A stretch of DNA of 64,000 nucleotides, from assembly GCA_015068455.1 (NCBI GenBank), contig SVKO01000005.1, forward strand, positions 62,001 to 126,000, read 5' to 3'. Under the pieces are notes generated by a model that ran no database searches, was not told where the DNA came from, and saw nothing but the letters and a program-made list of their open reading frames with translations. Below, one piece after another: positions 325 to 55,995 of this stretch. Position 1 is the first letter of the stretch. The number at the start of each line of letters is the position of its first letter. The DNA is from Oscillospiraceae bacterium (GTDB lineage Bacteria > Bacillota > Clostridia > Oscillospirales > Oscillospiraceae). Both the position numbers and the translations under genes were made by a program.

Positions 325-452
325 CGTGAAAAAACGGACACTCCGACCCAAGCCGGAATGCCCAGACGGTCGGCATCTGATGAATCAGACTGTGTTCCTC
401 CGTTCCCGTGTGGTGACCCACGTTTCCGTCAGTGGCGGAGGAGCTTCCAGCA
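325..452 (-). promoter_or_regulatory. ZTP (pfl) riboswitch with terminator, upstream of purE
   Basis: On the minus strand the leader reads ACTGACGGAAACGTGGGT, then ACCACACGGGAACGG, and after a variable linker GCCGACCGTCTGGGC. These are the two conserved halves of the pfl/ZTP aptamer, and GACGG in the first half can pair with CCGTC in the second, as the family pseudoknot requires. CCGACC of the second half (minus, about 373-368) can alternatively pair with GGGTCGG (352-346), shortly before the T-run at 335-330. This suggests a terminator that ZTP binding prevents, switching purE on when 10-formyl-THF is short. The family assignment is by consensus recognition; the switching model is inference. 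Confidence 0.85.
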
Positions 453-32326: not shown

Positions 32327-32362
32327 ACACTTCACACTTTCCTTCAAAATTCAGCACATTTC

Positions 32363-32618
32363 AAAAAAGCCCCTGACCCGATCGGTCAGGGGCGAGGATT
32401 CGCGGTACCACCCTGATTCTGCGCAGAGTTCCCTCCGCACACTCAACGGCCCATAGGGCCCGGCCAGTAACGCGGCCGACGCCCTGCCCTACTTGGTTCG
32501 GACAGGGAGCTCCGGGATGAGCTATGCACAGCAGCCTCCACGCCGGCTCACACCCGCCGCCGGCTCTCTTTGCTGGAATGAAACTGTCTTATTCCCTTCA
32601 TTGCCTTTGTGATTTGCC
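32363..32618 (-). promoter_or_regulatory. T-box leader of leuS, leucine specifier
   Basis: Minus strand. Stem I carries AGAGAGCCGGCGG and GTGTGAGCCGGC, the specifier loop reads AG-CTC-A before TCCC, and the T-box AGGGTGGTACCGCG lies at 32414-32401. The terminator GCCCCTGACC / GGGTCAGGGGC plus six T is at 32393-32363. CTC is a leucine codon followed by the conserved purine. Uncharged tRNA-Leu would stabilise the antiterminator and raise leuS expression. Confidence 0.93.
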
Positions 32619-39943: not shown

Positions 39944-40105
39944 CAGGGAGTAGGATATGGCGCGTTAAGTACCGGACGGATAGGAGGTTGCCGCCGGGCG
40001 AAGGAGATTCTTTCTCCGCGGTGCCGTATCCGCCGACCGCCCTGACCGCCGGAAGCTGCCGGAAGAATATTTTTCAACCTCCTCCATCGAAATGGAGGCT
40101 TTTTT
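39944..40105 (+). promoter_or_regulatory. THF riboswitch with terminator/ribosome-site hairpin before folT
   Basis: Conserved THF aptamer pieces appear in order: GGGAGTAGGATATGG, GCGTTAAGT, GGAGGTTGCCGCCGG, GCGAA, CGCGGTGCCGTATCCGC. CAGGG (39944-39948) closes with CCCTG (40040-40044). After 36 nt, CCTCCAT (40081-40087) pairs with ATGGAGG (40092-40098) around CGAA, followed by C and six T that end at the folT ATG. The same GGAGG is the folT ribosome site, so this hairpin can block both transcription and translation when tetrahydrofolate is plentiful. Confidence 0.92.
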
Positions 40106-40684
40106 ATGCGCAAATCAACAAATCCCGCCATGAAAACCCGTACGCTTGTTACCTGTGCCCTGCTCGCCGCCATCACTGTCGTGCTGGCGCGGCTGGTCAT
40201 ACCCATGCCCAATGCCACCACCCGTTTTTCCATTGAAGCCGTGCCCGTGTTTCTGGCGGGCATGCTCTTCGGGCCGATCCCGGGCATGCTGGTGGGCTTC
40301 GCCGCCGACGCGGTGGGCTGCCTGTTCTCCGGCTACGGCTACAATCCCCTGTTCTGTGTGCCGCCGCTGCTTTACGGCCTGTGCGGCGGCCTGTTCCGGC
40401 CGCTGCTGGCGCGAAAAATGAACATCGGGACCATCGCCCTGGCCTTTCTCCCGGCGGTGGCGCTGGGTTCGATTCTCTATCAGAGCTGGTCGCTGGCGTT
40501 CGTCTACAATGCCAAGGGTACGTTTAAGGCAAGCTTTCTCTATTTCCTGTCCACGCGCTCGGCTCAGTTTGCCGTCACCTTCGTCCTGGACGTGCTGATC
40601 GTCTGGGCGCTGTATAAATGCAAGGTGTTCCAGGCGGCAAAGCTTTGGCCGCCGCAGAAGGAGGCAAAGCAAAATGACGCTTGA
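40106..40684 (+). CDS. folT: Folate-type ECF transporter substrate-binding subunit (FolT)
   Basis: Integral membrane S component of an energy-coupling-factor vitamin transporter, working with a shared EcfAA'T module not in this window. The 192-aa protein has about six hydrophobic helices and the start region LVTCALLAAITVVLARLVIP typical of S components, with MPNATTRFSIEAVPVFLAG, which suits the FolT group. Folate specificity is supported by the THF riboswitch upstream and folC downstream. The ATG at 40106 uses GGAGG inside the regulatory hairpin. Confidence 0.9.
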   Translation: MRKSTNPAMKTRTLVTCALLAAITVVLARLVIPMPNATTRFSIEAVPVFLAGMLFGPIPGMLVGFAADAVGCLFSGYGYNPLFCVPPLLYGLCGGLFRPLLARKMNIGTIALAFLPAVALGSILYQSWSLAFVYNAKGTFKASFLYFLSTRSAQFAVTFVLDVLIVWALYKCKVFQAAKLWPPQKEAKQNDA

Positions 40685-41996
40685 TCAGGCGCTTTCGTAT
40701 ATCCACTCGGTTACCTGGCGCGGCAGCGTGCCTGGCCTGTCAAGGACCCGGGAGCTTCTGTCCAAGATGGGTGATCCGCAGAACCGGCTGAAATTCATCC
40801 ATGTTGCCGGCACCAACGGCAAGGGCTCCACCTGCGCCATGCTCTCAAGCATCCTGCAGAAGGCGGGCTATAAAACCGGCCTGTATACCTCGCCATACAT
40901 CAACCGCTTCCATGAGCGCATGCAGGTCAACGGCGAGCCCATCTCCGACGATGAGCTGTGCCGGATCACAGAATTTGTCCGTCCTCTTGCCGACGCCATG
41001 GAAGACGTACCCACCGAATTCGAGCTTGTCACCTGCATCGGCTTCGAGTTCTTCGCACGCCGGCAGTGTGAGATCGTGGTGCTCGAGTGCGGCATGGGCG
41101 GCGAATTCGACTCCACCAACGTGATCGAAGTCCCGGAATGCGCGGTGCTGTGCACCATCGGCATGGACCATATGCAGTACCTGGGCCATACCCACGCGGA
41201 GATCGCCCGTACCAAGGCCGGCATCTTCAAGCCCGGCGGCGTATGCGTCACCTATCCGGGGCTGCCCGAGGTGGATGCCGTCTACCGTGAGGCGGCAGAC
41301 GAACGCGAGCTCACCTGGATCCGTGCGGATTTTGGCCGGCTGCATCCTGTGGCCCACAGTCTCCGGGGTCAGGCGTTTGATTTTGACGGCTTCGGCCGGC
41401 TGCACCTTTCCCTGCTGGGCCGCAATCAGCTTTGCAACTGCGCCTTGGCGCTGCACGTTGTGGAGGCTCTGCGGCAAAAGGGCTGGGCGATCCCGGACGA
41501 CGCCGTGCGCGACGGCCTGTCCGCCGTGGCCTGGCCGGGCCGGTTCGAGCTGCTGCGCAGGCACCCTGACGTGATCGTCGACGGCGGTCACAACGTGCAG
41601 TGCATGCTCTCGCTCAAGGAAAACATCATGGACTACCTGCCCGGACGGGAGATCATCGCAGTCACGGGCGTCATGGCGGACAAGGAGTATGAAAAGATGT
41701 ACTTCCCCGTTATGCCCCTGATCCGCAGGTTTATTACTGTGGAGCCGCCCAACCCCCGCGCGCTGCCCGCACCAGAGCTGGCGCGTGCCCTGCAGGGCAT
41801 GGGCGCCGATGCACAGAGCGCCGATACCGTGGAAGACGGCGTCCGCGCTGCCCTGGCCCTGGCCAGGCCGGATGACTGCATTCTGGCATTCGGCTCCCTG
41901 TACATGCTGGGAAAGATCCGAAGCTGCATTTTTGACATGCAGAAACTGACGAAACAGGCAACTGACGTTCCGCCGGACCTTCCCATTTTTATGTAA
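40674..41996 (+). CDS. folC: Folylpolyglutamate synthase / dihydrofolate synthase
   Basis: Mur-ligase family enzyme adding glutamates to folates, which traps imported folate in the cell. The 440-aa protein has the P-loop HVAGTNGKGSTCAML (near residues 43-57), YTSPYINRFHERM, ECGMGGEFDSTN, IGMDHMQYLG and IVDGGHNV. GGAGG 11 nt before the ATG; start overlaps the folT stop by 11 nt. Uptake plus polyglutamylation under one THF riboswitch forms a folate salvage unit. Confidence 0.95.
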   Translation: MTLDQALSYIHSVTWRGSVPGLSRTRELLSKMGDPQNRLKFIHVAGTNGKGSTCAMLSSILQKAGYKTGLYTSPYINRFHERMQVNGEPISDDELCRITEFVRPLADAMEDVPTEFELVTCIGFEFFARRQCEIVVLECGMGGEFDSTNVIEVPECAVLCTIGMDHMQYLGHTHAEIARTKAGIFKPGGVCVTYPGLPEVDAVYREAADERELTWIRADFGRLHPVAHSLRGQAFDFDGFGRLHLSLLGRNQLCNCALALHVVEALRQKGWAIPDDAVRDGLSAVAWPGRFELLRRHPDVIVDGGHNVQCMLSLKENIMDYLPGREIIAVTGVMADKEYEKMYFPVMPLIRRFITVEPPNPRALPAPELARALQGMGADAQSADTVEDGVRAALALARPDDCILAFGSLYMLGKIRSCIFDMQKLTKQATDVPPDLPIFM

Positions 41997-42019: not shown

Positions 42020-42048
42020 TTGACAATTCGCAGCGATTGTGCTTAAAT
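42020..42048 (+). promoter_or_regulatory. sigma-A promoter of the leucine T-box unit
   Basis: TTGACA (42020-42025), 17 bp spacer, TTAAAT (42043-42048). No terminator is evident between folC and this promoter. Confidence 0.8.
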
Positions 42049-42059
42049 TGACGCAATAC

Positions 42060-42322
42060 CGATAAATACGATGACGGAATTATGCTTCTGTCGGAGCGCC
42101 CCAGAGAGCCGGCGGGCGGTGCGAGCCGGTGCCAAAGACAGAGTGCAGTCTGCTTCCCGAGTAGACATGGCGAACGCCTGTGCAATTAGCTGTGTACGTC
42201 CGGCCCCGTTACCGGCCATGGACTTGCTTGAGTCCGAGAAAGTGCATCCGCTCTGCGGATGAAGCAGGGTGGTACCGCGAATCGAGATTCGTCCCTGAGG
42301 CTCCGGCCTCAGGGATTTTTTT
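42060..42322 (+). promoter_or_regulatory. T-box leader, specifier read as CTG (leucine)
   Basis: Stem I carries CAGAGAGCCGGCGG and GGTGCGAGCCGG, the T-box AGGGTGGTACCGCG is near 42266-42279, and the terminator TCCCTGAGGC / GCCTCAGGGA plus seven T is at 42292-42322. Lower stem I pairs GGAA with TTCC and TAC with GTA across a kink-turn (GATGAC / CGA). By analogy with the other three leaders here, the codon lies four bases before TTCC, giving CTG with C in the usual purine position. TGC (Cys) one base later is a less consistent reading. Confidence 0.85.
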
Positions 42323-42347
42323 GCAATAACCGAAAGGAGCCAGATCC

Positions 42348-43766
42348 ATGAACATGATTTCCATCAGCGACGTCACCATGAAGCAGTCCGGAAGGGCCGC
42401 CGGCGTCAATCTCAGCTTCCGGGAGAAGATCGAGCTTTCCAAGCAGCTTGACCGCCTGGGAGTGGATGTGATTGAAACGAGTCCCATCGTCAATCCGAAG
42501 GTGGACGCGCTGCTGATCAAATCCATTTCCACCGCCGTCAAGCACGCCGTTGTGGCCGTGCCCACCGGCCTTGCGGAAGAAGACGCCCAGCGCGCCTGGA
42601 ATGCGCTTTCCGAGGCCAAGCGCCCGAGATTGCAGGTCTGCGCGCCCGTGAGCGCAGTGCAGATGGAATATCTGGCCCACAAAAAGCCCGCCGCCATGCT
42701 GGAGGCCATCGGCGAGGCAGTGCGCAGAGCGAAGGATCTGTGCCCCGACGTGGAATTCTGGGCCGACGACGCCACCCGCGCCGATGCATCCTTCCTTTAC
42801 AGCGCCCTTTCCTGCGCCGTCGAAGCCGGTGCGGGAACCATCACCGTCTGCGATACCGCGGGCGCCATGCTGCCCGACGAATTCCTGGATTTCATCACCC
42901 GTCTGTATGAGAACGTCCCCGGACTGAAGGACGTTACCCTGGGCGTCGGGATCTCCAACGAGCTGTCCATGGCCGATTCCTGCGCCATCGCCGCCATCCG
43001 CGCCGGCGTGGGCGAGGTCAAAGCGGCCTCCTATCCCATCGACACCGCCAGTGTGGAAAACCTCGCCAAGATCCTCACAGCCAAGGGCGCGCAGCTGGAC
43101 GCCGGCACCCGGGTACACGTGACCCAGATGCACCGGATCCTGCGGCAGATCTCCTGGATGTTTGAGACCAGCCGCAGCAAGAACTCCCCCTTTGAAAACG
43201 GCGTGCAGGATCACAGCGGCCTCTATCTCACCGCCCATGACGACATGAGCGCCGTCATGAAGATGGTGACCCAGCTGGGCTACGATCTCAGCGAGGAAGA
43301 CGGCGTCAAGGTCTTTGAGGCCTTCCAGCGCATTGCCGAACGCAAGGAAAAGGTCGGCGCCCGGGAGCTGGACGCCATCGTGGCCTCCAGCGCCATGCAG
43401 GTCCCCCCCACCTACCGGATCGAGACTTATGTCATCAACGCCGGCAACGCCATTGCATCCACATCGCATATCAAGCTTCAGAAAAACGGCCAGACCATCG
43501 AAGGCTTGTGTGTCGGCGACGGCCCCATCGACGCCTCCATTCTCGCCATCGAGCAGGCAGTGGGCCATCACTATGAACTCGACGACTTCCAGATCCAGGC
43601 CGTCACCGAGGGGCGCGAGGCCATGGGCGAGACCGTGGTCAAGCTGCGCAGCGGCGGCAAGGTCTACTCCGGCCGCGGCATCTCCACCGATATCCTCGGC
43701 GCCAGTATCCGCGCCTACATCAACGCCCTGAACAAGATCGTATACGAAGAGGAAAACAATTCCTAA
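42348..43766 (+). CDS. 2-isopropylmalate synthase homologue with altered catalytic site
   Basis: The 472-aa protein aligns along LeuA: an N-terminal TIM barrel (1 to about 290) and a C-terminal LeuA_dimer regulatory domain (about 350-465, with VTEGREAMGETVVKLRSGG and GRGISTDILGASIRAY). In LeuA the barrel opens with DTTLRDGEQ; here it reads SDVTMKQSG, so catalytic Arg is Lys12 and the next Asp is Gln13. The metal motif VHTHDD is VGISNE, with Gly201 and Ser203 in place of both His, and the GxGERAGN motif is also lost. Claisen condensation is therefore unlikely. With a leucine T-box and an intact leucine-binding domain, a regulatory or repurposed role is possible. Confidence 0.88.
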   Translation: MNMISISDVTMKQSGRAAGVNLSFREKIELSKQLDRLGVDVIETSPIVNPKVDALLIKSISTAVKHAVVAVPTGLAEEDAQRAWNALSEAKRPRLQVCAPVSAVQMEYLAHKKPAAMLEAIGEAVRRAKDLCPDVEFWADDATRADASFLYSALSCAVEAGAGTITVCDTAGAMLPDEFLDFITRLYENVPGLKDVTLGVGISNELSMADSCAIAAIRAGVGEVKAASYPIDTASVENLAKILTAKGAQLDAGTRVHVTQMHRILRQISWMFETSRSKNSPFENGVQDHSGLYLTAHDDMSAVMKMVTQLGYDLSEEDGVKVFEAFQRIAERKEKVGARELDAIVASSAMQVPPTYRIETYVINAGNAIASTSHIKLQKNGQTIEGLCVGDGPIDASILAIEQAVGHHYELDDFQIQAVTEGREAMGETVVKLRSGGKVYSGRGISTDILGASIRAYINALNKIVYEEENNS

Positions 43767-43778
43767 GAGGAGCAGCAT

Positions 43779-46295
43779 ATGAATTTATCATTCTCCACCC
43801 GCGGCTGGCTCGACGTCAGCTGGGAAGAAAACATCCAGACCGCCCTGGACATGCGCTTCGGAGGCATTGAGGTCTACAATATCCATAAGACCCCCGCGCT
43901 GACCGATCGCGGCGGTCCCTTCCATAAATACAATACCGCAGCCACCGTCCGTCAGCTTCGGGAGAAAAAGCTCTCCATTCCTGTGTTTGACACCTCCTGC
44001 GATATCTCCAGCGAGGACTGCCTGGACGACGTTCGCGACATCATGCAGATCGCCCACAATATGCAGGTGCCTTATGTCTGTGTCGTGGCTTTGTGCGACG
44101 ACGATGAGCGCATCCGCGGCGCGCTCCGCGTTCTCATTCCCGACGCCGAACGCCTTGGCCTGACCATCCTGCTCAAGACCAGCGGCGTGTTCTCCGACAC
44201 CGCCCGCCTTCGCGCCCTCCTCGATGACTTCGCCTGCGATCAGCTGGCCGCCCTCTGGGATATCCACCACCCCTACCGCGATCACGGAGAGAGCGCCGAC
44301 ACCACCATCCGCAATCTGGGCGGCTATGTGCGCCACGTCCATCTGCGCGACTCCGACGACGCCTTCACCTACAATCTGATCGGCGAGGGCACCCTGCCCA
44401 CCAAGGATATGATGCTGGCCCTGTCCTCCATCGACTACGACGGCTTCATCTCCATCGAATGGAAGCCGGAATGGATGATGGACCTGCAGGACAAGGAGGT
44501 CATCTTCTCCCATTTCGTCAACTATATGAGCCGCTTCGACAACCCCCGGGGCAAGAAGCGCACCCTCTATGACAACTATAACCACACCGGTCAGTACGTC
44601 TGGAAGCACGACACCCTGATCTCCGAGACCTTCCCCCAGGTCCTTGACCGCATGGTGGAGGAATTCCCGGATCAGTACGCCTTCAAATACACCACCCTGG
44701 ACTACACCCGCACCTATGAGGAATTCCGGGAGGATGTGGATAATTTTGCCCGCGCCCTGATCTCCATGGGCGTGCGCCGGGGCAGCAAGGTGGCCATCTG
44801 GGCCACAAACGTGCCCGCCTGGTACATCACCTTCTGGGCATCGACCAAGATCGGCGCGGTGCTCGTCACGGTAAACACCGCCTACAAGATCCATGAGGCT
44901 GAGTACCTGCTGCGCCAGTCCGACACCCACACCCTGGTGATGATTGACTCCTGCCTGGACTCGAATTACGCCAAAATTATCAACGAGCTCTGCCCGGAAC
45001 TTGCCTCCACCAAGCCGGGCCAGCCCCTGCACGCCAAGCGCCTGCCCTTCCTGCGCAACGTCATCACCGTGGGCTTCAACATGCCCGGCTGCCTGAACTT
45101 CGACGAAGCCATGGATCGGGCGGATCTGGTCCCCATCGAGGAGGTCTGGCGCATGGCCGCCAATGTGCGGCCGGACGACGTGTGCAACATGCAGTACACT
45201 TCCGGCACCACGGGCTTCCCCAAGGGCGTCATGCTCACCAACTACAACGTGGTCAACGACGGCAAGTGCATCGGCGACCGCATGGGCCTGTCCACCGCCG
45301 ACCGTATGATGATCCAGGTGCCCATGTTCCACTGCTTCGGCATGGTGCTGGCCATGACGGCCTCCATGACCCACGGCGCCACCCTGTGTCCCCTGCCCTA
45401 TTTCTCGGCCAAGGTCTCCCTGGCCTGCATCAATCAGGAGCGCATCACCTGCTTCCACGGCGTGCCCACCATGTTCATCGCCATGTTCAACCACCCGGAT
45501 TACCGCAAGACGGATTTCTCCTATATGCGCACGGGCATCATGGCGGGCTCCGGCTGTCCGCCGGAACTCATGAAGCGCGCCGCCCAGCCGGACGAGATGA
45601 ACATGCGCGGCATCGTCAGCGTTTACGGTCAGACCGAGTCCTCGCCGGGCAGCACCATGTCCGCCTGGACCGACCCGCTGGAGCTTCGCTGCAACACCGT
45701 GGGCTACGACTTCCCCCATGTGGAGTGCAAAATCATCGATCCGGAGACCGGCGAAGAAGTGCCCGACGGAGTCAACGGCGAATTCTGCTCCAGTGGCTAC
45801 AACACAATGAAGGGCTACTACAAGATGCCCGAGGCCACCGCCGCCACCGTGGACGCCCAGGGCTGGCTCCACTCCGGCGACCTGGCATGCCGGGATTCTG
45901 ACGGCAATTACCGCATCACCGGCCGACTGAAGGACATGATCATCCGCGGCGGCGAGAACATCTACCCCAAGGAGATCGAGGAATTCATCTATACCCATCC
46001 GGCTGTACAGGACGTACAGGTCATCGGCGTTCCGGATAAAAAATACGGCGAAGAAATCATGGCCTGCATCGTGCTTAAAAAGGGTCAAAGCGTCACCGAG
46101 GGCGAGATGCTTGATTATATCCGCGCCTCCATGGCCCGGCACAAGGTACCCAGGTACATCGACTTCGTCGACGGCTTCCCCATGAACGCCGCGGGCAAGA
46201 TCCTCAAGTACAAAATGCGCGAGGACGCTACAAAGCGCCTGGGGCTGCAGGACGCCGCCGGGATCGATACGGCAAAAACATCGGAACAGCTTTGA
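43779..46295 (+). CDS. Fusion of TIM-barrel isomerase-like domain and acyl-CoA synthetase
   Basis: An 838-aa protein. Residues 1 to about 265 resemble the sugar-phosphate isomerase/AP-endonuclease-2 barrel, with metal-site-like ALWDIHHPYRDHGE, VRHVHLRD and FISIEWKPEW. Residues about 275-825 form an AMP-dependent acyl-CoA synthetase with YTSGTTGFPKGVML (about 472-485), YGQTESSPG, HSGDLA, GRLKDMIIRGGENIYPKEIE and the catalytic Lys in NAAGKILKYKMRE. GAGGAG precedes the ATG 12 nt after the LeuA-like gene. Context suggests a branched-chain acid, possibly isovalerate, as substrate; the barrel's role is unknown. Confidence 0.85.
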   Translation: MNLSFSTRGWLDVSWEENIQTALDMRFGGIEVYNIHKTPALTDRGGPFHKYNTAATVRQLREKKLSIPVFDTSCDISSEDCLDDVRDIMQIAHNMQVPYVCVVALCDDDERIRGALRVLIPDAERLGLTILLKTSGVFSDTARLRALLDDFACDQLAALWDIHHPYRDHGESADTTIRNLGGYVRHVHLRDSDDAFTYNLIGEGTLPTKDMMLALSSIDYDGFISIEWKPEWMMDLQDKEVIFSHFVNYMSRFDNPRGKKRTLYDNYNHTGQYVWKHDTLISETFPQVLDRMVEEFPDQYAFKYTTLDYTRTYEEFREDVDNFARALISMGVRRGSKVAIWATNVPAWYITFWASTKIGAVLVTVNTAYKIHEAEYLLRQSDTHTLVMIDSCLDSNYAKIINELCPELASTKPGQPLHAKRLPFLRNVITVGFNMPGCLNFDEAMDRADLVPIEEVWRMAANVRPDDVCNMQYTSGTTGFPKGVMLTNYNVVNDGKCIGDRMGLSTADRMMIQVPMFHCFGMVLAMTASMTHGATLCPLPYFSAKVSLACINQERITCFHGVPTMFIAMFNHPDYRKTDFSYMRTGIMAGSGCPPELMKRAAQPDEMNMRGIVSVYGQTESSPGSTMSAWTDPLELRCNTVGYDFPHVECKIIDPETGEEVPDGVNGEFCSSGYNTMKGYYKMPEATAATVDAQGWLHSGDLACRDSDGNYRITGRLKDMIIRGGENIYPKEIEEFIYTHPAVQDVQVIGVPDKKYGEEIMACIVLKKGQSVTEGEMLDYIRASMARHKVPRYIDFVDGFPMNAAGKILKYKMREDATKRLGLQDAAGIDTAKTSEQL

Positions 46296-46299
46296 TCTT

Positions 46300-46331
46300 A
46301 CGGGAGACGGCGCAAGCCGTCTCCCGTTTGT
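46300..46331 (+). terminator. Probable terminator of the leucine T-box unit
   Basis: ACGGGAGACGGC and GCCGTCTCCCGT form a perfect 12-bp stem around GCAA, 4 nt after the stop; the following TTTGTC is a weak T-run. Confidence 0.65.
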
Positions 46332-46357
46332 CTCGTCAGAACCGCAAAAAATTATGC

Positions 46358-46386
46358 TTGACTTTTGTGCAAATGTGTGATACAGT
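46358..46386 (+). promoter_or_regulatory. sigma-A promoter of the isoleucine T-box unit
   Basis: TTGACT (46358-46363), 17 bp spacer, TACAGT (46381-46386) with extended TG. Confidence 0.75.
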
Positions 46387-46394
46387 TCTCGCAA

Positions 46395-46663
46395 CAACCA
46401 AATACGAAAAGCTATGACGAAGACGGTCGGGCGAATCGCTCTCAGAGAGCCGGTGGTTGGTGCAAACCGGCAGCATGGACCCATCAGACCTATCACTTCC
46501 GAGCTGAAGGCCCGAACACTTATGCAAGTAGACGCCTTCCGTAGCCCGCGTTAAGGGATAGGGCCTGTTGGGGCCTGAAGGGGCGGCCGAAGGCCGCAAT
46601 TTGAGTGGTACCGCGGGTATGTGTATAACAGCTCGTCTCAAGTTTGAGACGAGCTGTTTTTTT
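46395..46663 (+). promoter_or_regulatory. T-box leader, isoleucine specifier (ATC)
   Basis: Stem I has CAGAGAGCCGGTGG and TTGGTGCAAACCGG. Its base pairs AGCT-ATGAC-GAAG with CTTC-CGA-GCT, placing ATC followed by A in the specifier position. The T-box GAGTGGTACCGCGGGT ends near 46616, and the terminator ACAGCTCGTCTCA / TGAGACGAGCTGT plus seven T is at 46628-46663. The gene for the first HTH-cupin-acyl-CoA synthetase starts 34 nt later. Confidence 0.93.
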
Positions 46664-46696
46664 ATTCTTCAGGCACAATGCAGAAAGGAAAGTATT

Positions 46697-48964
46697 ATGA
46701 GTCCGAATGCTGTAAACAACCAACTGCTGGACATCGCCCAGCGCATCCGCGCCATGCGCGAAATCTCTGAATATTCCACCAAAGAAATGGCTGAGCGAAT
46801 TGAAATTCCTGAATCACTGTACCTGCAGTATGAGCGGGCGGAGATCGATCTGCCCTTCACCTTCATCCATAAATGCGCCCAGGTCTTCGACGTGGAACTG
46901 ACGGATCTGCTCGAGGGCAACTCCGCCCGCCTGTCCAGCTATACCGTCACCCGCCGCGACCGCGGTCTGGTCACCGCCAGTGAGGACGGCATCACCATCC
47001 AGGACATGGCGTCCAAATTCCGCCACAAGCTGGCCACCCCCTACTGGGTCACCTATGAGTATTCCGAGCAGCTCCAGCATGAGCCCATCCACACCACCAC
47101 CCATGCCGGCCAAGAGTTCGACCTGGTCATCAAGGGCAGCATGAAGGTGCGCGTGGGCGATCACGTGGAGGTCCTGCACGAGGGCGACAGCATTTTCTAC
47201 AACAGCTCCACCCCCCACGGCATGATCGCCGTCGACGGCGCCGACTGCGTGTTCCTGGCGATGATCATGGCCTCCGACGAGACCGACAAGGTCATCAAGC
47301 CCACCCCGCAGCGGGTGCGCCAGCCGGAGCCCAGCCTGCTGTGCGAGAAATTCGTCAAGCCCGTGGAGGATGAGAACGGCTGCCTGCAGTCCATCACCTT
47401 CCCAAACGCCGAAGAATTCAACTTTGCTTTCGACATTGTTGACGGCATTGCCCGCCGGGAGCCGGAGCGCCTGGCCATGATCTATGTGAGCAACGACATG
47501 GAGGAGCGGCGCTTCACCTTCAAGGATATGAAGGACGCCTCCTCCCAGGCCGCCAACTACTTCACCTCCCTTGGCATCAAGCGCGGCGACCGGGTCATGC
47601 TGGTGCTCAAGCGGCACTATCAGTTCTGGTTCTCCATCCTGGGTCTGCATAAGATCGGCGCCATCGCCATTCCCGCCACCAACCAGCTTCTGGAGCACGA
47701 CTTCACTTACCGCTTTGAATCCGCCGGCGTCAGCGCCATCGTCTGCACCGGCGACGGCGACACCGCCCATCAAGTGGAACTGGCCGAGCAGATCATGGGC
47801 ATCAATCTGACCAAGATCATCGTCGGACAGCCGCGCGAAGGCTGGCACGACTTCAATGAAGAGTACGGCCTGTTCTCCCGCCGGTTCCGCCGCCGCGACA
47901 ATTCTCCCTGCGGCAGCGATCCGATGCTGATGTTCTTCTCCTCCGGCACCACCGGCTATCCCAAGATCGTCCAGCACAACTACAAGTACGCCCTGGGCCA
48001 TTTCGTCACCGCCAAGTACTGGCATCAGGTGCGCCGTGAGGGCCTGCATTTCACCATTTCCGAGACCGGCTGGGGCAAGGCCCTGTGGGGCAAGCTCTAC
48101 GGCCAGTGGCTGTGCGAGGGCGCGGTATTCGTCTATGACTTTGACCGCTTCCACGCCGACAAGATCCTGCCCATGTTCGCCAAGTACCACATCACCACCT
48201 TCTGCGCGCCGCCCACCATGTACCGCATGCTCATCAAGCAGGATCTGAGCCAGTACGACCTGAGCTCCATCGAGCATGCCACCACCGCAGGCGAAGCGCT
48301 GAACGCCGAGGTCTTCTATCAGTTCCAGAAGTCCACCGGCCTGGCCGTCGCCGAGGGCTTCGGGCAGACCGAAACCACACTCTCCATCGGCAACCTCCGC
48401 GGCACCGCCATCAAGCCGGGCTCCATGGGCAAGCCCATCCCCTGCTACGGGGTGGATCTGGCCGATCCCGACGGCAATCCCGTGCCCGACGGCGTCAACG
48501 GCGAGATCGTCATCCATACGGACAAATCCATCACCAACGGCTTGTTCCAGTGCTACTACCGCGACGAGGAGAAGACGAAGGAAGCCTGGCATGACGGCCT
48601 GTATCACACCGGCGATCTTGCCTGGCGCGACGAGGACGGCTACTTCTGGTATGTGGGCCGGGCCGACGACGTGATCAAATCCTCCGGCTACCGCATCGGG
48701 CCCTTCGAGATCGAGTCCACCATCATGGAGCTTCCGTATGTCCTCGAGTGCGGCGTTTCTGCCGCCCCGGACGAGATCCGCGGCCAGGTGGTCAAGGCAA
48801 GCATCGTGCTTGTGCCCGGCAAGGAAGGCACCGAGGAACTCAAAAAAGAGATCCAGACCTACGTCAAGAAGCACACCGCCCCCTATAAATATCCCCGCAT
48901 CGTGGTGTTCCGCGACGAATTGCCCAAAACCATCAGCGGCAAAATTATGCGAAATAAGCTATAA
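46697..48964 (+). CDS. HTH-cupin-acyl-CoA synthetase fusion, isoleucine-controlled paralogue
   Basis: A 755-aa three-domain protein. Residues 11-74 are an XRE helix-turn-helix, and residues about 115-190 a cupin (HTTTHAGQEFDLVIKGSMKV, HEGDSIFY, TPHGM). Residues about 240-755 are a medium-chain-type acyl-CoA synthetase with FFSSGTTGYPK (413-423), EGFGQTET, HTGDLAWRDEDGYFWYVGR and catalytic Lys749 in TISGKIMRNKL. The ATG at 46697 follows AAAGGAAAG. Starvation for isoleucine should induce it, so 2-methylbutyrate is the candidate substrate. HTH plus cupin suggests that the enzyme also senses a ligand or binds DNA. Substrate and DNA binding are inference. Confidence 0.9.
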   Translation: MSPNAVNNQLLDIAQRIRAMREISEYSTKEMAERIEIPESLYLQYERAEIDLPFTFIHKCAQVFDVELTDLLEGNSARLSSYTVTRRDRGLVTASEDGITIQDMASKFRHKLATPYWVTYEYSEQLQHEPIHTTTHAGQEFDLVIKGSMKVRVGDHVEVLHEGDSIFYNSSTPHGMIAVDGADCVFLAMIMASDETDKVIKPTPQRVRQPEPSLLCEKFVKPVEDENGCLQSITFPNAEEFNFAFDIVDGIARREPERLAMIYVSNDMEERRFTFKDMKDASSQAANYFTSLGIKRGDRVMLVLKRHYQFWFSILGLHKIGAIAIPATNQLLEHDFTYRFESAGVSAIVCTGDGDTAHQVELAEQIMGINLTKIIVGQPREGWHDFNEEYGLFSRRFRRRDNSPCGSDPMLMFFSSGTTGYPKIVQHNYKYALGHFVTAKYWHQVRREGLHFTISETGWGKALWGKLYGQWLCEGAVFVYDFDRFHADKILPMFAKYHITTFCAPPTMYRMLIKQDLSQYDLSSIEHATTAGEALNAEVFYQFQKSTGLAVAEGFGQTETTLSIGNLRGTAIKPGSMGKPIPCYGVDLADPDGNPVPDGVNGEIVIHTDKSITNGLFQCYYRDEEKTKEAWHDGLYHTGDLAWRDEDGYFWYVGRADDVIKSSGYRIGPFEIESTIMELPYVLECGVSAAPDEIRGQVVKASIVLVPGKEGTEELKKEIQTYVKKHTAPYKYPRIVVFRDELPKTISGKIMRNKL

Positions 48965-48970
48965 TGCCAG

Positions 48971-48999
48971 TTGACAATAACAAATACTTATGATATGAT
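48971..48999 (+). promoter_or_regulatory. sigma-A promoter of the valine T-box operon
   Basis: TTGACA (48971-48976), 17 bp spacer, TATGAT (48994-48999) with extended TG. It begins 6 nt after the preceding stop and no terminator intervenes. Confidence 0.82.
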
Positions 49000-49007
49000 T
49001 CTGAGCA

Positions 49008-49286
49008 AATAAAGGCTAAGACGGAGAGGGTTCCCCTCAGTTCCATTTCAGAGAGCCGGCGTTTGGTGCGAGCCGGTATTGGGCGTTCGGAATTTGTCGC
49101 TCCCAAGCCGGAGAGAAGAAAGCGTAAGCAAGTAGAACTCCCCCGCGTCAGCTGCGTCAGTGCTTAGGGCTTGCTGGAGCCCGATGAGTGGTACATATCG
49201 AGAGGTATGTGCAATTTGAGTGGTACCGCGGGTATGCAATGCTGCAGCTCGTCTCAAGGATCTATCTTTGGGACGGGCTGTTTTTT
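49008..49286 (+). promoter_or_regulatory. T-box leader, valine specifier (GTC)
   Basis: Stem I has CAGAGAGCCGGCG and TTGGTGCGAGCCGG. Its base pairs GGCT-AAGAC-GGAG with CTCC-CAA-GCC, placing GTC followed by G in the specifier position. The 3' part AATTTGAGTGGTACCGCGGG is identical to that of the isoleucine leader, and the terminator stem (CAGCTCGTCTCAA / TTGGGACGGGCTG plus six T, 49245-49286) is also related. The two leaders therefore share origin and differ in specifier. Confidence 0.92.
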
Positions 49287-49316
49287 GTTCGTCCGAATAC
49301 GGAGGATTGAAGATTC

Positions 49317-51611
49317 ATGACCAACAAGACACTGACCGGACTGGACGTCAAGATCCAGGAAATGGCCGGCCGAATCCGCGATCTTCGCGAGATCACCGGC
49401 TTTACCACCGCCGAGATGGCGGAGCGCACAGGCATCAGCGAGGAAGAATATGTTCGCTGCGAGGCCGGCGTCAGCGATCTGCATTTTGCGTTCCTGTATC
49501 GCTGCGCTTTGGCCTTCGGCGTCGACGTCACCGATCTGATCGAGGGCCACAGCCCGAAGCTGCGCTCCTATACCGTCACCCGCAGCGGCCTCGGCCAGAA
49601 GATCGAGCAGGCCCATGAGATGGTCTACTACAACCTGGCCGCCGACTTCCAGAACCGCATCGCCGATCCCCTGCTGGTGGTCAATAAATATTCCGACCGC
49701 GCCTTCCACAGCGATATCGAGCTCACCACCCACTACGGCCAGGAGTGCGATCTGATCGTCAAGGGCTCCATGAAGGTCCAGGTGGGCGAGCATACGGAGC
49801 TGCTGCATGAAGGCGACTGCATCTACTACGACAGCTCCATCCCCCACGGCATGGTGGCCGCCGGCGGCGAGGACTGCATCTTCTATGCCATCGTCCTGCG
49901 TCCCCAGGACGCTCTGCCCGGCGCGTCCCCCGTGGGCGAGACCTATCTGCCCAGAGCAGAGGCAGATTCCGACGAGGAAGAGCGCGTCTACAAGAATTTC
50001 ATCGTCCCCACCGAGGATGAAAACGGCCTGTGCACGGCCATCGCGTTCAAGAACGAAGAGAAGTTCAACTTTGCCTTCGACGTCATTGACGCCCTGGGCC
50101 GCCGCAGCCCGGACAAGCTGGCCATGATCCACGTGTCCAACGACAAGACCGAGCGCCGCTTCACCTTCAAGGATATGAAGGACGCTTCCTCCCAGGCTGC
50201 CAACTACTTTACATCTCTTGGCATCAAACGCGGCGACCGGGTCATGCTGATCCTCAAGCGCCACTACCAGTACTGGTTCGCCCTTCTGGGTCTGCACAAG
50301 CTCGGCGCCATCGCCATCCCCGCCACCTATCAGCTCAAGCAGCATGACCTGAGCTATCGCTTCCAGTCCGCCGGCGTCAGCGCGATCCTGTGCACCTCCG
50401 ACGGCGACGTTGCCCACGAAGTGGAGATGGCCGAGGCAGAGACCGGCCTGAATTTGACAAAGATCATCGTCGGACAGGCCCGCGAAGGCTGGCGTGACTT
50501 CAATGAGGAATTCGGCCTGTTCTCCCGCCGGTTCCGCCGCCGCGACAACTCCCCCTGCGGCTCCGAGCCCATGCTCATGTACTTCACCTCCGGCACCTCG
50601 GGTTATCCCAAGATCGCCGTGCACAATTACAAGTATCCCCTGGGCCACTTCATCACCGCGAAATATTGGCAGCGCGTGACCCCCGACGGCCTGCATCTGA
50701 CCATTTCTGACACCGGCTGGGCCAAATCCGCCTGGGGCAAGATCTACGGCCAGTGGCTGTGCGAGACGGCTCTGTTCGTCTATGACTTCGACCGCTTCCA
50801 TGCCGACGACATCATGCCGATGTTCGCCAAGTACCAGATCACCACGTTCTGTGCGCCGCCCACCATGTACCGCATGTTCATCAAGCAGGATCTGAGCAAA
50901 TACGACTTCAGCTCCGTGCGCAATGCGGCCATCGCCGGCGAAGCCATGAACCCCGAGGTCTACCGCCAGTTTGAAAAGGCCACCGGCCTGCGCATCATGG
51001 AGGGCTTCGGCCAGACCGAGTCCACCGTCATCATCGCCAACCTGGCCGGCGACACCCACAAGGTCGGCTCCATGGGCAAAGCCGTGCCCCTGTACGACGT
51101 GCATCTGCTCACCCCCGAGGGCAAGGACGTCGCCCCCGGCGGCACCGGCGAGATCTGCATGAGCATCAAGGACGGCATCCCCTGCGGCCTGGCGGTGGAA
51201 TACTACCGCAGCCCGGAAATGACCGCCCAAACCTGGCGCGACGGTTTCTATCACACCGGCGATCTCGCCTGGCGGGATGAGGACGGCTTCTTCTGGTACG
51301 TGGGCCGGGCCGACGACGTGATCAAGTCCTCCGGCTACCGTATCGGGCCCTTCGAGATCGAGTCCACCATCATGGAGCTGCCCTACGTGCTCGAATGCGG
51401 CGTCTCCCCTGCCCCGGACGAGGTCCGCGGCCAGGTGGTCAAGGCCAGCATCGTGCTGGTGCCGGGCACCGAAGGCACCGAAGCCCTCAAGAAAGAGATC
51501 CAGACCTACGTCAAGACCCACACCGCGCCCTACAAATACCCGCGCATCGTGGAGTTCAAGGAATCCCTGCCCAAGACCACCAGCGGAAAGATCATCCGCA
51601 GCCAGCTGTGA
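49317..51611 (+). CDS. HTH-cupin-acyl-CoA synthetase fusion, valine-controlled paralogue
   Basis: 764 aa with the same architecture as the preceding gene: XRE domain (about 16-80), cupin (about 120-200, with TTHYGQECDLIVKGSMKV and HEGDCIYY), and acyl-CoA synthetase (about 245-764, YFTSGTSGYPK, EGFGQTEST, HTGDLAWRDEDGFFWYVGR, catalytic Lys in TTSGKIIRSQL). The synthetase halves are nearly superimposable; the stretch TFKDMKDASSQAANYFTSLG is identical. AGGATTGAAG lies before the ATG. A valine T-box and downstream oxidoreductase and aminotransferase suggest isobutyrate as substrate. It leads an operon to ilvE. Confidence 0.9.
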   Translation: MTNKTLTGLDVKIQEMAGRIRDLREITGFTTAEMAERTGISEEEYVRCEAGVSDLHFAFLYRCALAFGVDVTDLIEGHSPKLRSYTVTRSGLGQKIEQAHEMVYYNLAADFQNRIADPLLVVNKYSDRAFHSDIELTTHYGQECDLIVKGSMKVQVGEHTELLHEGDCIYYDSSIPHGMVAAGGEDCIFYAIVLRPQDALPGASPVGETYLPRAEADSDEEERVYKNFIVPTEDENGLCTAIAFKNEEKFNFAFDVIDALGRRSPDKLAMIHVSNDKTERRFTFKDMKDASSQAANYFTSLGIKRGDRVMLILKRHYQYWFALLGLHKLGAIAIPATYQLKQHDLSYRFQSAGVSAILCTSDGDVAHEVEMAEAETGLNLTKIIVGQAREGWRDFNEEFGLFSRRFRRRDNSPCGSEPMLMYFTSGTSGYPKIAVHNYKYPLGHFITAKYWQRVTPDGLHLTISDTGWAKSAWGKIYGQWLCETALFVYDFDRFHADDIMPMFAKYQITTFCAPPTMYRMFIKQDLSKYDFSSVRNAAIAGEAMNPEVYRQFEKATGLRIMEGFGQTESTVIIANLAGDTHKVGSMGKAVPLYDVHLLTPEGKDVAPGGTGEICMSIKDGIPCGLAVEYYRSPEMTAQTWRDGFYHTGDLAWRDEDGFFWYVGRADDVIKSSGYRIGPFEIESTIMELPYVLECGVSPAPDEVRGQVVKASIVLVPGTEGTEALKKEIQTYVKTHTAPYKYPRIVEFKESLPKTTSGKIIRSQL

Positions 51612-51620
51612 GGCGGCATT

Positions 51621-52322
51621 ATGGAATTTAAGCGGCTCACCCTCTTCGCCGGCCATTACGGCAGCGGCAAGACGAATATTGCCCTCAATTATGCCCGGGC
51701 GCTGAACCGGGACCACAACAACGTGGTCATCGCGGATCTGGATATCGTCAATCCCTACTTCCGCACCAAGGATTCCGAGGCGGCGCTCAAAGCCGAGGGC
51801 ATCGGGCTCATCGTATCGGAGTTTGCCAACTCCAACCTGGACGTGCCCGCCATGCCGAAGGAGATCTACGCCCTGGTGGACGACCGGTCGCAGCTGGGTG
51901 TGCTGGACATCGGCGGCGACGACCGGGGCGCCCTCGCCCTGGGCAGATACACCCCCGCCATCGCGGAGGAAAACAACTATGAGATGCTCCTGGTGGTGAA
52001 TATGTACCGGCCCCTCACCCGCACCGCCGACGATACCATCGAGGTCCTGCGGGAGATCGAGGAGGCCTGCCGTCTTCCCTTCACCGCCATCGTGAACAAT
52101 TCCAACCTGGGTCCGCTGACCACTGCGCAGACGGTGCTCAGCAGCATCCCATATGCACAGGAGATCTCCCGCAAAACGGGTCTGCCGGTCAAAATGACCT
52201 GCGCAAAAGAAGATTTATGTCCCAGCCTGGCCGGGCAGGTGGAAAATCTCTTCCCCCTGTCCCTCCAGAAACTATATTACCAAATCGATTCGGAGGTGCC
52301 CTATGGCGAAACTGACGTTTAA
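51621..52322 (+). CDS. P-loop ATPase of the oxidoreductase operon
   Basis: A 233-aa protein with Walker A GHYGSGKTN (residues 11-19), switch-like ADLDIVNPYFRTKD and VLDIGGDDRGALALGRY, placing it among ParA/MinD/CobQ-type deviant P-loop ATPases. It starts 10 nt after the synthetase gene and overlaps the ferredoxin gene by 20 nt, so it is part of the operon. Function is unknown; assistance in iron-sulfur loading or activation of the oxidoreductase is a guess from position. Confidence 0.8.
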   Translation: MEFKRLTLFAGHYGSGKTNIALNYARALNRDHNNVVIADLDIVNPYFRTKDSEAALKAEGIGLIVSEFANSNLDVPAMPKEIYALVDDRSQLGVLDIGGDDRGALALGRYTPAIAEENNYEMLLVVNMYRPLTRTADDTIEVLREIEEACRLPFTAIVNNSNLGPLTTAQTVLSSIPYAQEISRKTGLPVKMTCAKEDLCPSLAGQVENLFPLSLQKLYYQIDSEVPYGETDV

Positions 52323-52509
52323 GGAAGAGCTGTGCAAGGGCTGCGGCCTGTGCGTTGACGCCTGTCCGCGCAATCTGTTGGCCCTGTCAAAGACCCGGCT
52401 CAATCAAAAGGGGCATGCGCCCGTGGAGCTCACTGACCCCGCCGCATGCATCGGCTGCGCCTTCTGCGCGACCATGTGCCCGGACTGTGTCATCACGGTC
52501 GAGCGCTGA
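52303..52509 (+). CDS. 2-oxoacid:ferredoxin oxidoreductase, ferredoxin-like delta subunit
   Basis: A 68-aa dicluster [4Fe-4S] protein with CKGCGLCVDACP (11-22) and CIGCAFCATMCP (49-60), both intact. It carries electrons between the catalytic core and ferredoxin. GGAGG 6 nt before the ATG. The order delta-alpha-beta-gamma is that of Kor/Vor-type enzymes. Confidence 0.92.
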   Translation: MAKLTFKEELCKGCGLCVDACPRNLLALSKTRLNQKGHAPVELTDPAACIGCAFCATMCPDCVITVER

Positions 52510-52524
52510 GAAAGGAGTAAGCGA

Positions 52525-53591
52525 ATGCAGGAAAAAGTACTCATGAAGGGCAATGAAGCCATTGCCGAGGCCGCGATCCTGGCGGGCTGCCGCCACTATT
52601 TCGGCTACCCCATCACCCCGCAGACCGAGGTCGCGGCCTATATGTCCAAGAAGATGCCCAAGATCGGCGGCACCTTCCTGCAGGCCGAGAGCGAGATCGC
52701 GGCCATCAACATGGTCTACGGCGTTTCCGCCACGGGCAAGCGCGTGATGACCTCCTCCTCCAGCCCCGGAATCGCCCTGAAATGCGAGGGCATCTCCTAC
52801 CTGGCGGGTTCCGACCTGCCGGCGCTGATCCTGAACGTCCAGCGCGGCGGCCCCGGCCTGGGCGGCATCCAGCCGTCGCAGTCGGACTACTTCCTTGCCA
52901 CCCGCGGCCCCGGCCACGGCGACTTCCATGTCATCGTTCTGGCCCCCGCCAGCGTGCAGGAAATGGCGGACCTCACCCTGAAGGCCTTTGAGCTGGGCGA
53001 GAAGTACCGCATGCCCGTCATGCTCCTGGCCGACGGCACCATGGGCCAGATGATGGAGCCCGTGGCCCTGCCCGAGCCCACCGAGATCGATCCCACGCCG
53101 AAGAGCTGGGCCGCCACCGGCACCAACTGCGAGCGTGAGCATAACATTGTCAACTCCCTTTACCTGTCCCCGGACGAGCTGGAGCGCACCAACATCGAGC
53201 GCTTCGAGCGCTACGCCGCCATCGAGCGCGACGAGCCCATGTGGGAGGAGTTCATGATGGACGACGCCGAGATCTGCGTGGTTTCCACCGGCATCACCGC
53301 GAGAGTCTCCCGCAACGCCATCGTTGAGGCGCGCAAGCAGGGCATCAAGGTCGGCATGCTCCGGCCCATCACCCTGTGGCCCTTCCCGAAGAAGGCCCTG
53401 CAGGCCGCCGCGGAAAAGGTCAAGGCTTTCGTATCCGTGGAGCTGAACATGGGCCAGATGAAGGAAGACGTCGAGCTGGCCATCCGCTGCACCAAGCCCG
53501 TCAGCCTGTGCTACCGCGTCGGCGGCATGATCCAGACCCCGGACGAGGTGCTGGAAGCCATCAAGAAAGCAAACGAAGGAGGTCAGGAATA

Positions 53592-53592
<1 letters not shown>
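52525..53592 (+). CDS. 2-oxoacid:ferredoxin oxidoreductase, alpha subunit
   Basis: The 355-aa alpha chain has the CoA/TPP-interface sequence [19 protein letters not shown] near the N-terminus, then [31 protein letters not shown] and a C-terminal [16 protein letters not shown]. Sequence alone does not separate 2-oxoglutarate (Kor) from 2-ketoisovalerate (Vor) enzymes. The valine-controlled operon and adjacent ilvE favour branched 2-oxoacids. AAAGGAG precedes the ATG. Confidence 0.9.
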
Positions 53593-54335
<743 letters not shown>

Positions 54336-54338
54336 GAA

Positions 54339-54872
54339 ATGGCTGAAAATCAAATCGTCATCGCCGGCTTCGGCGGACAGGGCCTGCTGTTCTCCGGCAA
54401 GGTGCTGGCCTATGCCGGCCTCATCGAAGGCAGAGAGCTGAGCTGGCTGCCCTCCTACGGCCCGGAAATGCGCGGCGGCACCGCCAACTGCAACGTCATC
54501 CTGTCGGATATCCCCGTGGGCTCGCCCATCGTGCAGAAGCCCGACATCCTCATGGTGATGAACAACCCGTCCCTGGACAAATATGAGAACGCCGTGGTTC
54601 CCGGCGGCAAGATCTTCATCGACTCTTCACTGATCGGCCGGAAGGTGCAGCGCACCGACGTGGAGGCCTATTATGTCCCCGCCACCCAGATGGCCGCCGA
54701 CATGGGCTTCCCCACTCTGGCGAACATGATCCTGCTGGGCACCGTCATCGCCAAGACCGGCTGCATCAACCCTGAGAGCCTCTCAGACGCCCTGCACAAG
54801 GTCATCCCCGCCCGCAAGGCAAATCTCTTTGACGCCAACATGCAGGCCCTGCAGGCCGGCATGGCGTTCTGA
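54339..54872 (+). CDS. 2-oxoacid:ferredoxin oxidoreductase, gamma subunit
   Basis: The 177-aa gamma chain shows IAGFGGQGLLFSGKVLAYAG at the N-terminus, LPSYGPEMRGGTANCNVILS and FPTLANMILLGTVI, all typical. It completes the four-subunit enzyme. It follows beta by 3 nt and precedes the aminotransferase gene by 52 nt, without terminator, so the operon continues. Confidence 0.92.
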   Translation: MAENQIVIAGFGGQGLLFSGKVLAYAGLIEGRELSWLPSYGPEMRGGTANCNVILSDIPVGSPIVQKPDILMVMNNPSLDKYENAVVPGGKIFIDSSLIGRKVQRTDVEAYYVPATQMAADMGFPTLANMILLGTVIAKTGCINPESLSDALHKVIPARKANLFDANMQALQAGMAF

Positions 54873-54924
54873 AACCGTACCAACCCGACCATTGGCCGGA
54901 ATCATTAAAAGGAGGAAAGTAAAA

Positions 54925-55995
54925 ATGGCAATGAATATTTCTATTACCCGTACCACCAATCCGAAGCCGCGGCCCGCGGACGAGAGCAAGCTGGGCTTTG
55001 CCAAGCAGTTCTCCGACCATATGTTCCTGATGGACTACACCGCCGGCGTCGGCTGGCATGACGCCCGCATCGTTCCCTATGCGCCCTTTGAGATGGATCC
55101 GGCCACCGTGGTCCTGCACTATGCCCAGGAGATCTTCGAAGGCCTGAAGGCCTACCGCACCGCCGAGGACAAGATTCTCCTGTTCCGTCCGGACTGCAAT
55201 GCCAACCGCATGAACGACTCCGCCGACCGTCTGTGCATCCCCCGCATCGATCCCGACTTCTTCGTCGAGGCCGTGCGCACCCTGGTGGATGTGGATAAGG
55301 ACTGGGTCCCCCATCTGGACGGCACATCCCTGTACATCCGCCCCTTCATCTTTGCCAACGACGTGGGCCTGGGCGTCCACGCCTCCAAGCACTATGTCTT
55401 CTGCATCATCACCGCCCCCTCCGGCGCCTACTACGCCGAGGGCATCAACCCGGTGCGCATCTACGTCGAGGATGACTACATCCGCGCGGCCCCGGGCCTG
55501 ACCGGCTTCACCAAGTGCGGCGGCAACTACGCCGCCTCCATCAAGGCCGGCGAGCTGGCCGAGGAGCAGGGCTTCGCCCAGGTGCTCTGGCTGGACGGCA
55601 TTGAGAAGAAGTATGTCGAAGAGGTCGGCTCCATGAACATCATGTTCAAGATCGACGGCAAGATCTACACCGCCGCCACCGTCGGCACCGTCCTGCCCGG
55701 CGTCACCCGCCGCTCCATCATCGAGCTGTGCAAGGACTGGGGCTACGAGGTCATCGAGGGCAAGCTGGCCATCGCCGACATCATGGCAGCCGCCCGCGAG
55801 GGCAAGCTCGAGGAAGTCTTCGGCACCGGCACCGCCGCCGTCGTCTCCCCCGTCAAGGAGCTGCGCTGGAAGGACGAGACCGCCTACATCTCCGGCGGCA
55901 AGATCGGCCCCCTCACCCAGAAGCTCTACGACACCCTCACCGGCATCCAGTGGGGCAAGCTCCCCGACACCAAGGGCTGGACCGTGGAGGTCTGA
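54925..55995 (+). CDS. ilvE: Branched-chain amino acid aminotransferase
   Basis: PLP fold type IV transaminase (356 aa) interconverting Leu, Ile, Val and their 2-oxoacids with glutamate. DYTAGVGWHDARIVPYAPFE, LHYAQEIFEGLKAYR, LYIRPFIF, GGNYAASIKAGELAEEQGFAQVLWLDG (in parts) with the PLP Lys following GGNYAASI, and the ELRWKDETAYISGG tail fit the longer bacterial BCAT class. GGAGG 9 nt before ATG 54925. As last gene of the valine operon it supplies the final step from 2-oxoacid to amino acid. Confidence 0.95.
   Translation: MAMNISITRTTNPKPRPADESKLGFAKQFSDHMFLMDYTAGVGWHDARIVPYAPFEMDPATVVLHYAQEIFEGLKAYRTAEDKILLFRPDCNANRMNDSADRLCIPRIDPDFFVEAVRTLVDVDKDWVPHLDGTSLYIRPFIFANDVGLGVHASKHYVFCIITAPSGAYYAEGINPVRIYVEDDYIRAAPGLTGFTKCGGNYAASIKAGELAEEQGFAQVLWLDGIEKKYVEEVGSMNIMFKIDGKIYTAATVGTVLPGVTRRSIIELCKDWGYEVIEGKLAIADIMAAAREGKLEEVFGTGTAAVVSPVKELRWKDETAYISGGKIGPLTQKLYDTLTGIQWGKLPDTKGWTVEV

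Follow-up and report, generated by a model that had tools for sequence, protein, structure and literature searches.

It has been clear since the 1960s that rumen bacteria require branched volatile fatty acids, and they have been described to make leucine, isoleucine and valine from branched acids (Allison and co-workers, 1962–1984, as cited in PMC7356843). The common steps of this carboxylation pathway, known through tracer work, are the activation of isovalerate, 2-methylbutyrate or isobutyrate, reductive carboxylation and transamination. In the literature that we could reach, neither the genes nor their regulation were assigned, and in 2020 the reverse reaction was still considered unproven for Prevotella (PMC7709123). 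Here we analyzed a 64,000-nucleotide stretch of DNA (hereafter the window) from an Oscillospiraceae bacterium, a gut-type member of the Clostridia whose genome appears to have swapped its normal genes for leucine, isoleucine and valine synthesis for three separately switched salvage units located at positions 42020-55995. The source is a 2.3-Mb assembly with a completeness of 99.67%.

The chemistry and the individual parts of this locus are of kinds already known. T-box riboswitches (RF00230) share with it the stem I specifier, the TGG antiterminator bulge, the intrinsic terminator and the promoter, but their usual targets are aminoacyl-tRNA synthetase, biosynthesis and transport genes. MacsMa of Methanosarcina acetivorans (PDB 3ETC), an enzyme that prefers 2-methylbutyrate (PMC10455477), is 54% identical to the ligase part of the second-unit synthetase and has the same pocket glycine; it differs in having no XRE domain, cupin or T-box, and the Val clade has a pocket alanine. 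MbcS of Staphylococcus aureus (NF047394) is the best model for the synthetases of units 2 and 3, but it supplies lipid synthesis and is one enzyme for both 2-methylbutyrate and isobutyrate, and the window proteins reach only about half of its curated cut-off. The 2-isopropylmalate synthase LeuA has the fold and the C-terminal leucine-binding domain of a protein in unit 1, whose family has, however, lost the catalytic residues throughout. What appears to be new is one T-box per activating enzyme, a specifier that names the substrate, the separation of two ligases by one residue, and the LeuA pseudoenzyme. An earlier note on this DNA knew of no system with one T-box per activating enzyme; neither such a system nor a T-box-controlled oxidoreductase or acyl-CoA synthetase of these kinds was found in the literature searched, most subscription journals being outside our reach, and an earlier description is possible.

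Each of the three cassettes has a promoter-like site, a T-box and an intrinsic terminator upstream of one AMP-forming acyl-CoA synthetase. The features, in window coordinates, are listed below (XRE-HTH, XRE helix-turn-helix; VOR, 2-oxoisovalerate:ferredoxin oxidoreductase; TPP, thiamine pyrophosphate).

42020..42049, +, Leu-unit promoter-like site, TTGACA-18-TAAATT (TTGACA in 33/35 homologous Leu units)
42062..42299, +, T-box 1, specifier CUG (Leu), RF00230 97.5 bits (gathering 93)
42291..42316, +, intrinsic terminator of T-box 1
42348..43766, +, LeuA-like pseudoenzyme, HMGL barrel devoid of catalytic residues plus LeuA_dimer domain, candidate leucine sensor (profile, structure and residue comparison)
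43779..46295, +, acyl-CoA synthetase (PRK12583-like) with a fused xylose-isomerase-like TIM barrel, candidate isovalerate-CoA ligase (Pfam/NCBIfam)
46358..46386, +, Ile-unit promoter-like site (TTGACA in 42/60 homologous Ile units)
46405..46643, +, T-box 2, specifier AUC (Ile), RF00230 93.2 bits (gathering 93)
46627..46658, +, intrinsic terminator of T-box 2
46697..48964, +, XRE-HTH, cupin and acyl-CoA synthetase, Ile clade, Gly460, candidate 2-methylbutyrate-CoA ligase
48971..48999, +, Val-unit promoter-like site, 11/12 match, TG ahead of the -10 (TTGACA in 71/78 homologous Val units)
49009..49259, +, T-box 3, specifier GUC (Val), RF00230 74.6 bits (under gathering 93, E = 2e-16)
49244..49281, +, intrinsic terminator of T-box 3
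49317..51611, +, XRE-HTH, cupin and acyl-CoA synthetase, Val clade, Ala469, candidate isobutyrate-CoA ligase
51621..52322, +, P-loop NTPase, SIMIBI fold class, beside VOR in most loci
52303..52509, +, VorD, delta subunit, 2[4Fe-4S] ferredoxin-type
52525..53592, +, VorB, alpha subunit (NF005507 532 bits, cut-off 399)
53592..54335, +, VorA, beta subunit, TPP-binding
54339..54872, +, VorC, gamma subunit
54925..55995, +, IlvE, branched-chain aminotransferase (TIGR01123 396.6 bits, cut-off 250; PRK13357 475 bits, cut-off 307)

The earlier note had described one acyl-CoA synthetase per unit, each fused to extra domains, followed by a four-subunit 2-oxoacid:ferredoxin oxidoreductase and ilvE. Pfam and NCBIfam agree with this outline, the fused domains being a TIM barrel in unit 1 and XRE-HTH plus cupin in units 2 and 3. 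The LeuA-like gene that opens unit 1 had been overlooked, and the P-loop NTPase gene, which stands between the synthetase and VorDBAC in unit 3, had not been listed. Intergenic gaps downstream of the Val synthetase are at most 52 bases. All four VOR subunits were found through their POR_N, TPP_enzyme_C, POR and Fer4 domains, and with VorB above its curated cut-off, the complex is a putative 2-oxoisovalerate:ferredoxin oxidoreductase. Structure searches with the P-loop NTPase returned only a general signal recognition particle (SRP)/HypB-type NTPase fold and suggested no function; it is possibly a maturation factor for the neighbouring iron-sulfur enzyme.

We consider it very probable that these units form a T-box-controlled salvage pathway from branched acids to leucine, isoleucine and valine. 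Uncharged tRNA-Leu, tRNA-Ile or tRNA-Val would cause its T-box to antiterminate its own transcript, and the induced AMP-forming ligases of units 1, 2 and 3 would activate isovalerate, 2-methylbutyrate and isobutyrate, respectively, at the expense of ATP and CoA. VOR, working as a reductive carboxylase with reduced ferredoxin, would convert the acyl-CoA to the 2-oxo acid, which IlvE would transaminate to the amino acid, while the dead LeuA of the Leu unit would probably provide leucine feedback on its partner ligase. We infer the biosynthetic direction, including that of VOR, because T-boxes act when the tRNA is uncharged and because the canonical pathway has been lost.

This loss was assessed by family searches of the genome, with 14 control genomes in which ilvC, ilvD, TPP_enzyme_N and aconitase were detected in 14/14 cases. 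The same searches found neither ilvC nor ilvD in the genome, nor an acetolactate synthase, the matches being VorB and one further weak hit, both under the cut-off. No LeuC was found either, the lone match being an aconitase-type protein of about 780 residues. BrnQ was likewise absent, in a search positive in 4/14 controls; ABC-type (ATP-binding cassette) branched-chain amino acid importers were not searched for. Judged from their sequences, the two other HMGL proteins of the genome are not LeuA but look like a Re-type citrate synthase in one case and a carboxyltransferase in the other. As ilvC, ilvD, acetolactate synthase, LeuC and a true LeuA are all missing, the canonical route to valine, isoleucine and leucine is gone.

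VOR and IlvE are both reversible and are generally known to work oxidatively in amino-acid-fermenting anaerobes. The cluster could thus be catabolic, with IlvE deaminating the amino acids, VOR oxidizing the products to acyl-CoA, and the synthetases running in reverse or clearing acids. Induction upon uncharging of the cognate tRNA would, however, have the wrong sense for breakdown, AMP-forming ligases cost two ATP equivalents in a unit that has no ADP-forming ligase or Ptb-Buk, and the genome would be left without any alternative route to the three amino acids, which makes a catabolic role very unlikely.

The RF00230 matches confirm the T-boxes, and the stem I geometry gives the specifiers CTG, ATC and GTC, as the earlier note had read them. 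T-box 3 is, despite its score below gathering, unmistakable as a predicted T-box, and in all three T-boxes the UGGN-bulge antiterminator (GTGGTACC) is followed by a strong terminator. The specifier was located by a rule blind to the codon, which uses four pairs that follow the GATGA bulge, with the partner before GAG, and the codon with one base in front of it; an initial, simpler script had misread weak T-boxes, and the stricter version was used for the results. In the same genome, the rule returned the expected amino acid for the T-boxes of valS, tyrS, leuS, ileS, trpE, pheS and cysS, and misread a few others, such as those of asnB and a His gene. The ileS T-box has the same specifier as T-box 2, AUC, and tRNA-Leu(CAG) and tRNA-Val(GAC) are present in the genome. 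The three T-box terminators are the strongest among 17 in the region, and the three promoter-like sites are the top three among five in 14 kb; as the number of such sites is at chance level (5 versus 4.8 in shuffles), it is their placement that is informative.

The units and their pairing with specifiers are kept in about 100 related loci. The conservation set comprised about 108 further loci, taken from a search of relatives and from named genomes; among the 80 named loci, no fewer than 57 bear RGIG or RUG titles, which are those of ruminant gut catalogues, a source in which the collection itself is rich. When the counts were limited to T-boxes with a clear structure, a Leu specifier stood before 35/35 LeuA-like genes, an Ile specifier before 66/66 Ile-clade synthetases and a Val specifier before 67/71 Val-clade synthetases, the two synthetase clades being separated by the midpoint root of their tree. 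Overall, specifier and gene agreed in 168/172 T-boxes of the window and its relatives, while the maximum in 10,000 label shuffles was 86, the sequences being related and not independent. The specifier codons vary synonymously (CTG, CTC or CTT for Leu; GTC or GTA for Val), and Leu units have been moved or inverted in some loci, which argues that the amino acid rather than the codon is conserved. One of the four mismatches, L047, was a script error (CGG by the script, GUA in the Infernal alignment).

The loss of ilvC follows the distribution of the synthetases. Among 119 relatives, ilvC was present in none of the 14 that carry both synthetases (Ile and Val), in 8/23 with the Ile type alone and in 50/82 with neither, that is, in 58 of the 105 without the pair; of 50 further cluster genomes, 46 had no ilvC. 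This fits a situation in which isoleucine salvage is compatible with ilvC and valine salvage renders it dispensable. The Ile + Val pair without ilvC could serve as a marker for gut bacteria that live on the branched acids of others. Genomes that have only the Ile-type fused synthetase and keep ilvC (G003, G016, G025, G030, G054, G062, G072, and G085) represent partial salvage, and bear on the sequence in which the pathway was lost.

For the substrates of the ligases, kinship offers a first indication. Across 516 residues, the Ile synthetase and MacsMa share 54% identity, and MbcS was the top NCBIfam model for both XRE-cupin synthetases (440.5 and 404.9 bits), although the cut-off of 850 was not reached, which suggests proteins of the same kind but of a different equivalog. 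MbcS is selective for 2-methylbutyrate and isobutyrate and weak on isovalerate (PMC10026030). The Leu-unit ligase belongs to a different subfamily according to NCBIfam, which might suit the demands of the beta-branched isovalerate. Among 764 aligned positions, a single one was more than 95% fixed with differing residues in both clades, namely Ala469 in 93/93 Val-clade and Gly460 in 76/76 Ile-clade sequences. It comes after the GW motif, where MacsMa has Gly and acetyl-CoA synthetase has Ile, and we take it to be the position that lines the acyl pocket in acetyl-CoA synthetase, a pocket reportedly examined by Ingram-Smith in 2006. The residue sizes, Ile, Ala and Gly, are inverse to those of acetate, isobutyrate and 2-methylbutyrate, as a pocket wall should be; the exact substrates of the three ligases are predictions. 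The earlier proposal that starvation for each amino acid induces activation of the matching acid thus gains support, at the level of sequence, from the pathway loss, the specifier pairing, the synthetase kinship and the pocket column. Units 2 and 3 also present a fusion of an XRE helix-turn-helix domain to a metabolic ligase (46697-46950 and 49317-49570, both +). A shared XRE operator near the promoters (TTGTG..CGCAA) was considered and rejected, as it is present in the window but not in relatives.

The acyl-CoAs could instead prime the synthesis of branched-chain fatty acids for membranes, as the nearest named model, MbcS, has this role in S. aureus (PMC10026030). VOR and IlvE in the same unit, three amino-acid-specific T-boxes, which would make no sense for lipid synthesis, and the co-occurrence of the cluster with ilvC loss render lipid priming highly improbable as the main function; a secondary use in lipids beside salvage is possible.

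Returning to salvage, the Leu unit has a peculiarity in its LeuA-like protein. By structure comparison it adopts the LeuA fold, with family E-values down to 1e-95, and it contains the LeuA_dimer leucine-binding domain (PF08502, 106.8 bits). The residue set conserved in LeuA (Arg, metal Asp, Glu, HxH and Asn) is, however, not preserved: LRDGEQ has become MKQSGR and HxH has become GIS, the GERAGN loop is deleted, and K, Q and D replace the conserved R, the metal D and E. In 48/49 homologues, at most one of the six catalytic or metal-binding residues is kept. Columns conserved above 90% number 62/138 in the C-terminal leucine domain versus 56/330 in the barrel, so that the leucine domain is the most strongly conserved region. 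The protein is, as judged from these residues, catalytically dead with its leucine-binding domain retained, and in the simplest reading it may sense leucine for its partner ligase. A working isopropylmalate synthase was rejected in view of the lost catalytic residues and the missing LeuC. The broader idea of an active protein, whether as isopropylmalate synthase or in a new DRE-TIM reaction, with leucine arising from 2-oxoisovalerate by chain elongation, draws on the fold and the family E-values, and is very improbable given the residue loss among the homologues, scores under every NCBIfam LeuA cut-off and a genome without LeuC.

Several observations weigh against the salvage pathway as drawn above. 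The shared carboxylation and transamination steps of the earlier note have their genes, yet VOR and IlvE follow the Val T-box only; because both lie behind the Val terminator alone, starvation for Leu or Ile by itself should not raise them, and basal read-through or another input would therefore be needed under a shortage of Leu or Ile alone. The substrate of the Leu-unit ligase is assigned from its position and T-box. The assembly contains no tRNA-Ile(GAU), which is perhaps missing together with the rRNA operons. In relatives, 4/50 cluster genomes retain ilvC, L085 and L114, from which the Ile synthetase has been lost, have the Ile T-box before the Val-clade gene, the specifier of L027 reads CUC, and in L053, L055, L058, L060, L061, L063 and L076 the LeuA-like and TIM-ligase pair lies downstream of ilvE in the Val operon without its own T-box.

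Whether the locus exemplifies a widespread replacement regulon of gut Clostridia, in which the specifier would name the substrate, a Gly/Ala change would have split one ligase into two and a dead LeuA would control the isovalerate ligase, is a proposition that we regard as evenly balanced. The locus provides named genes, substrates predicted by specifiers and a probable one-residue basis of specificity that can be mutated, and T-box specifiers could be used more generally to assign substrates to enzymes.

Other riboswitches were noted in the window and the genome. The leuS gene has its own T-box, with specifier CUC and a score above Rfam gathering (29906-32610, -), and two further T-boxes of the genome (L003 and L009) have the specifiers GCA (Ala), upstream of an aminotransferase, and TGG (Trp), upstream of a TrpB2-like gene. 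A ZMP/ZTP riboswitch above the gathering score lies at 353-446 (-), and immediately upstream of the Leu unit, at 39944-41996 (+), a tetrahydrofolate (THF) riboswitch precedes a gene resembling an energy-coupling factor (ECF)-type folate transporter and folC.

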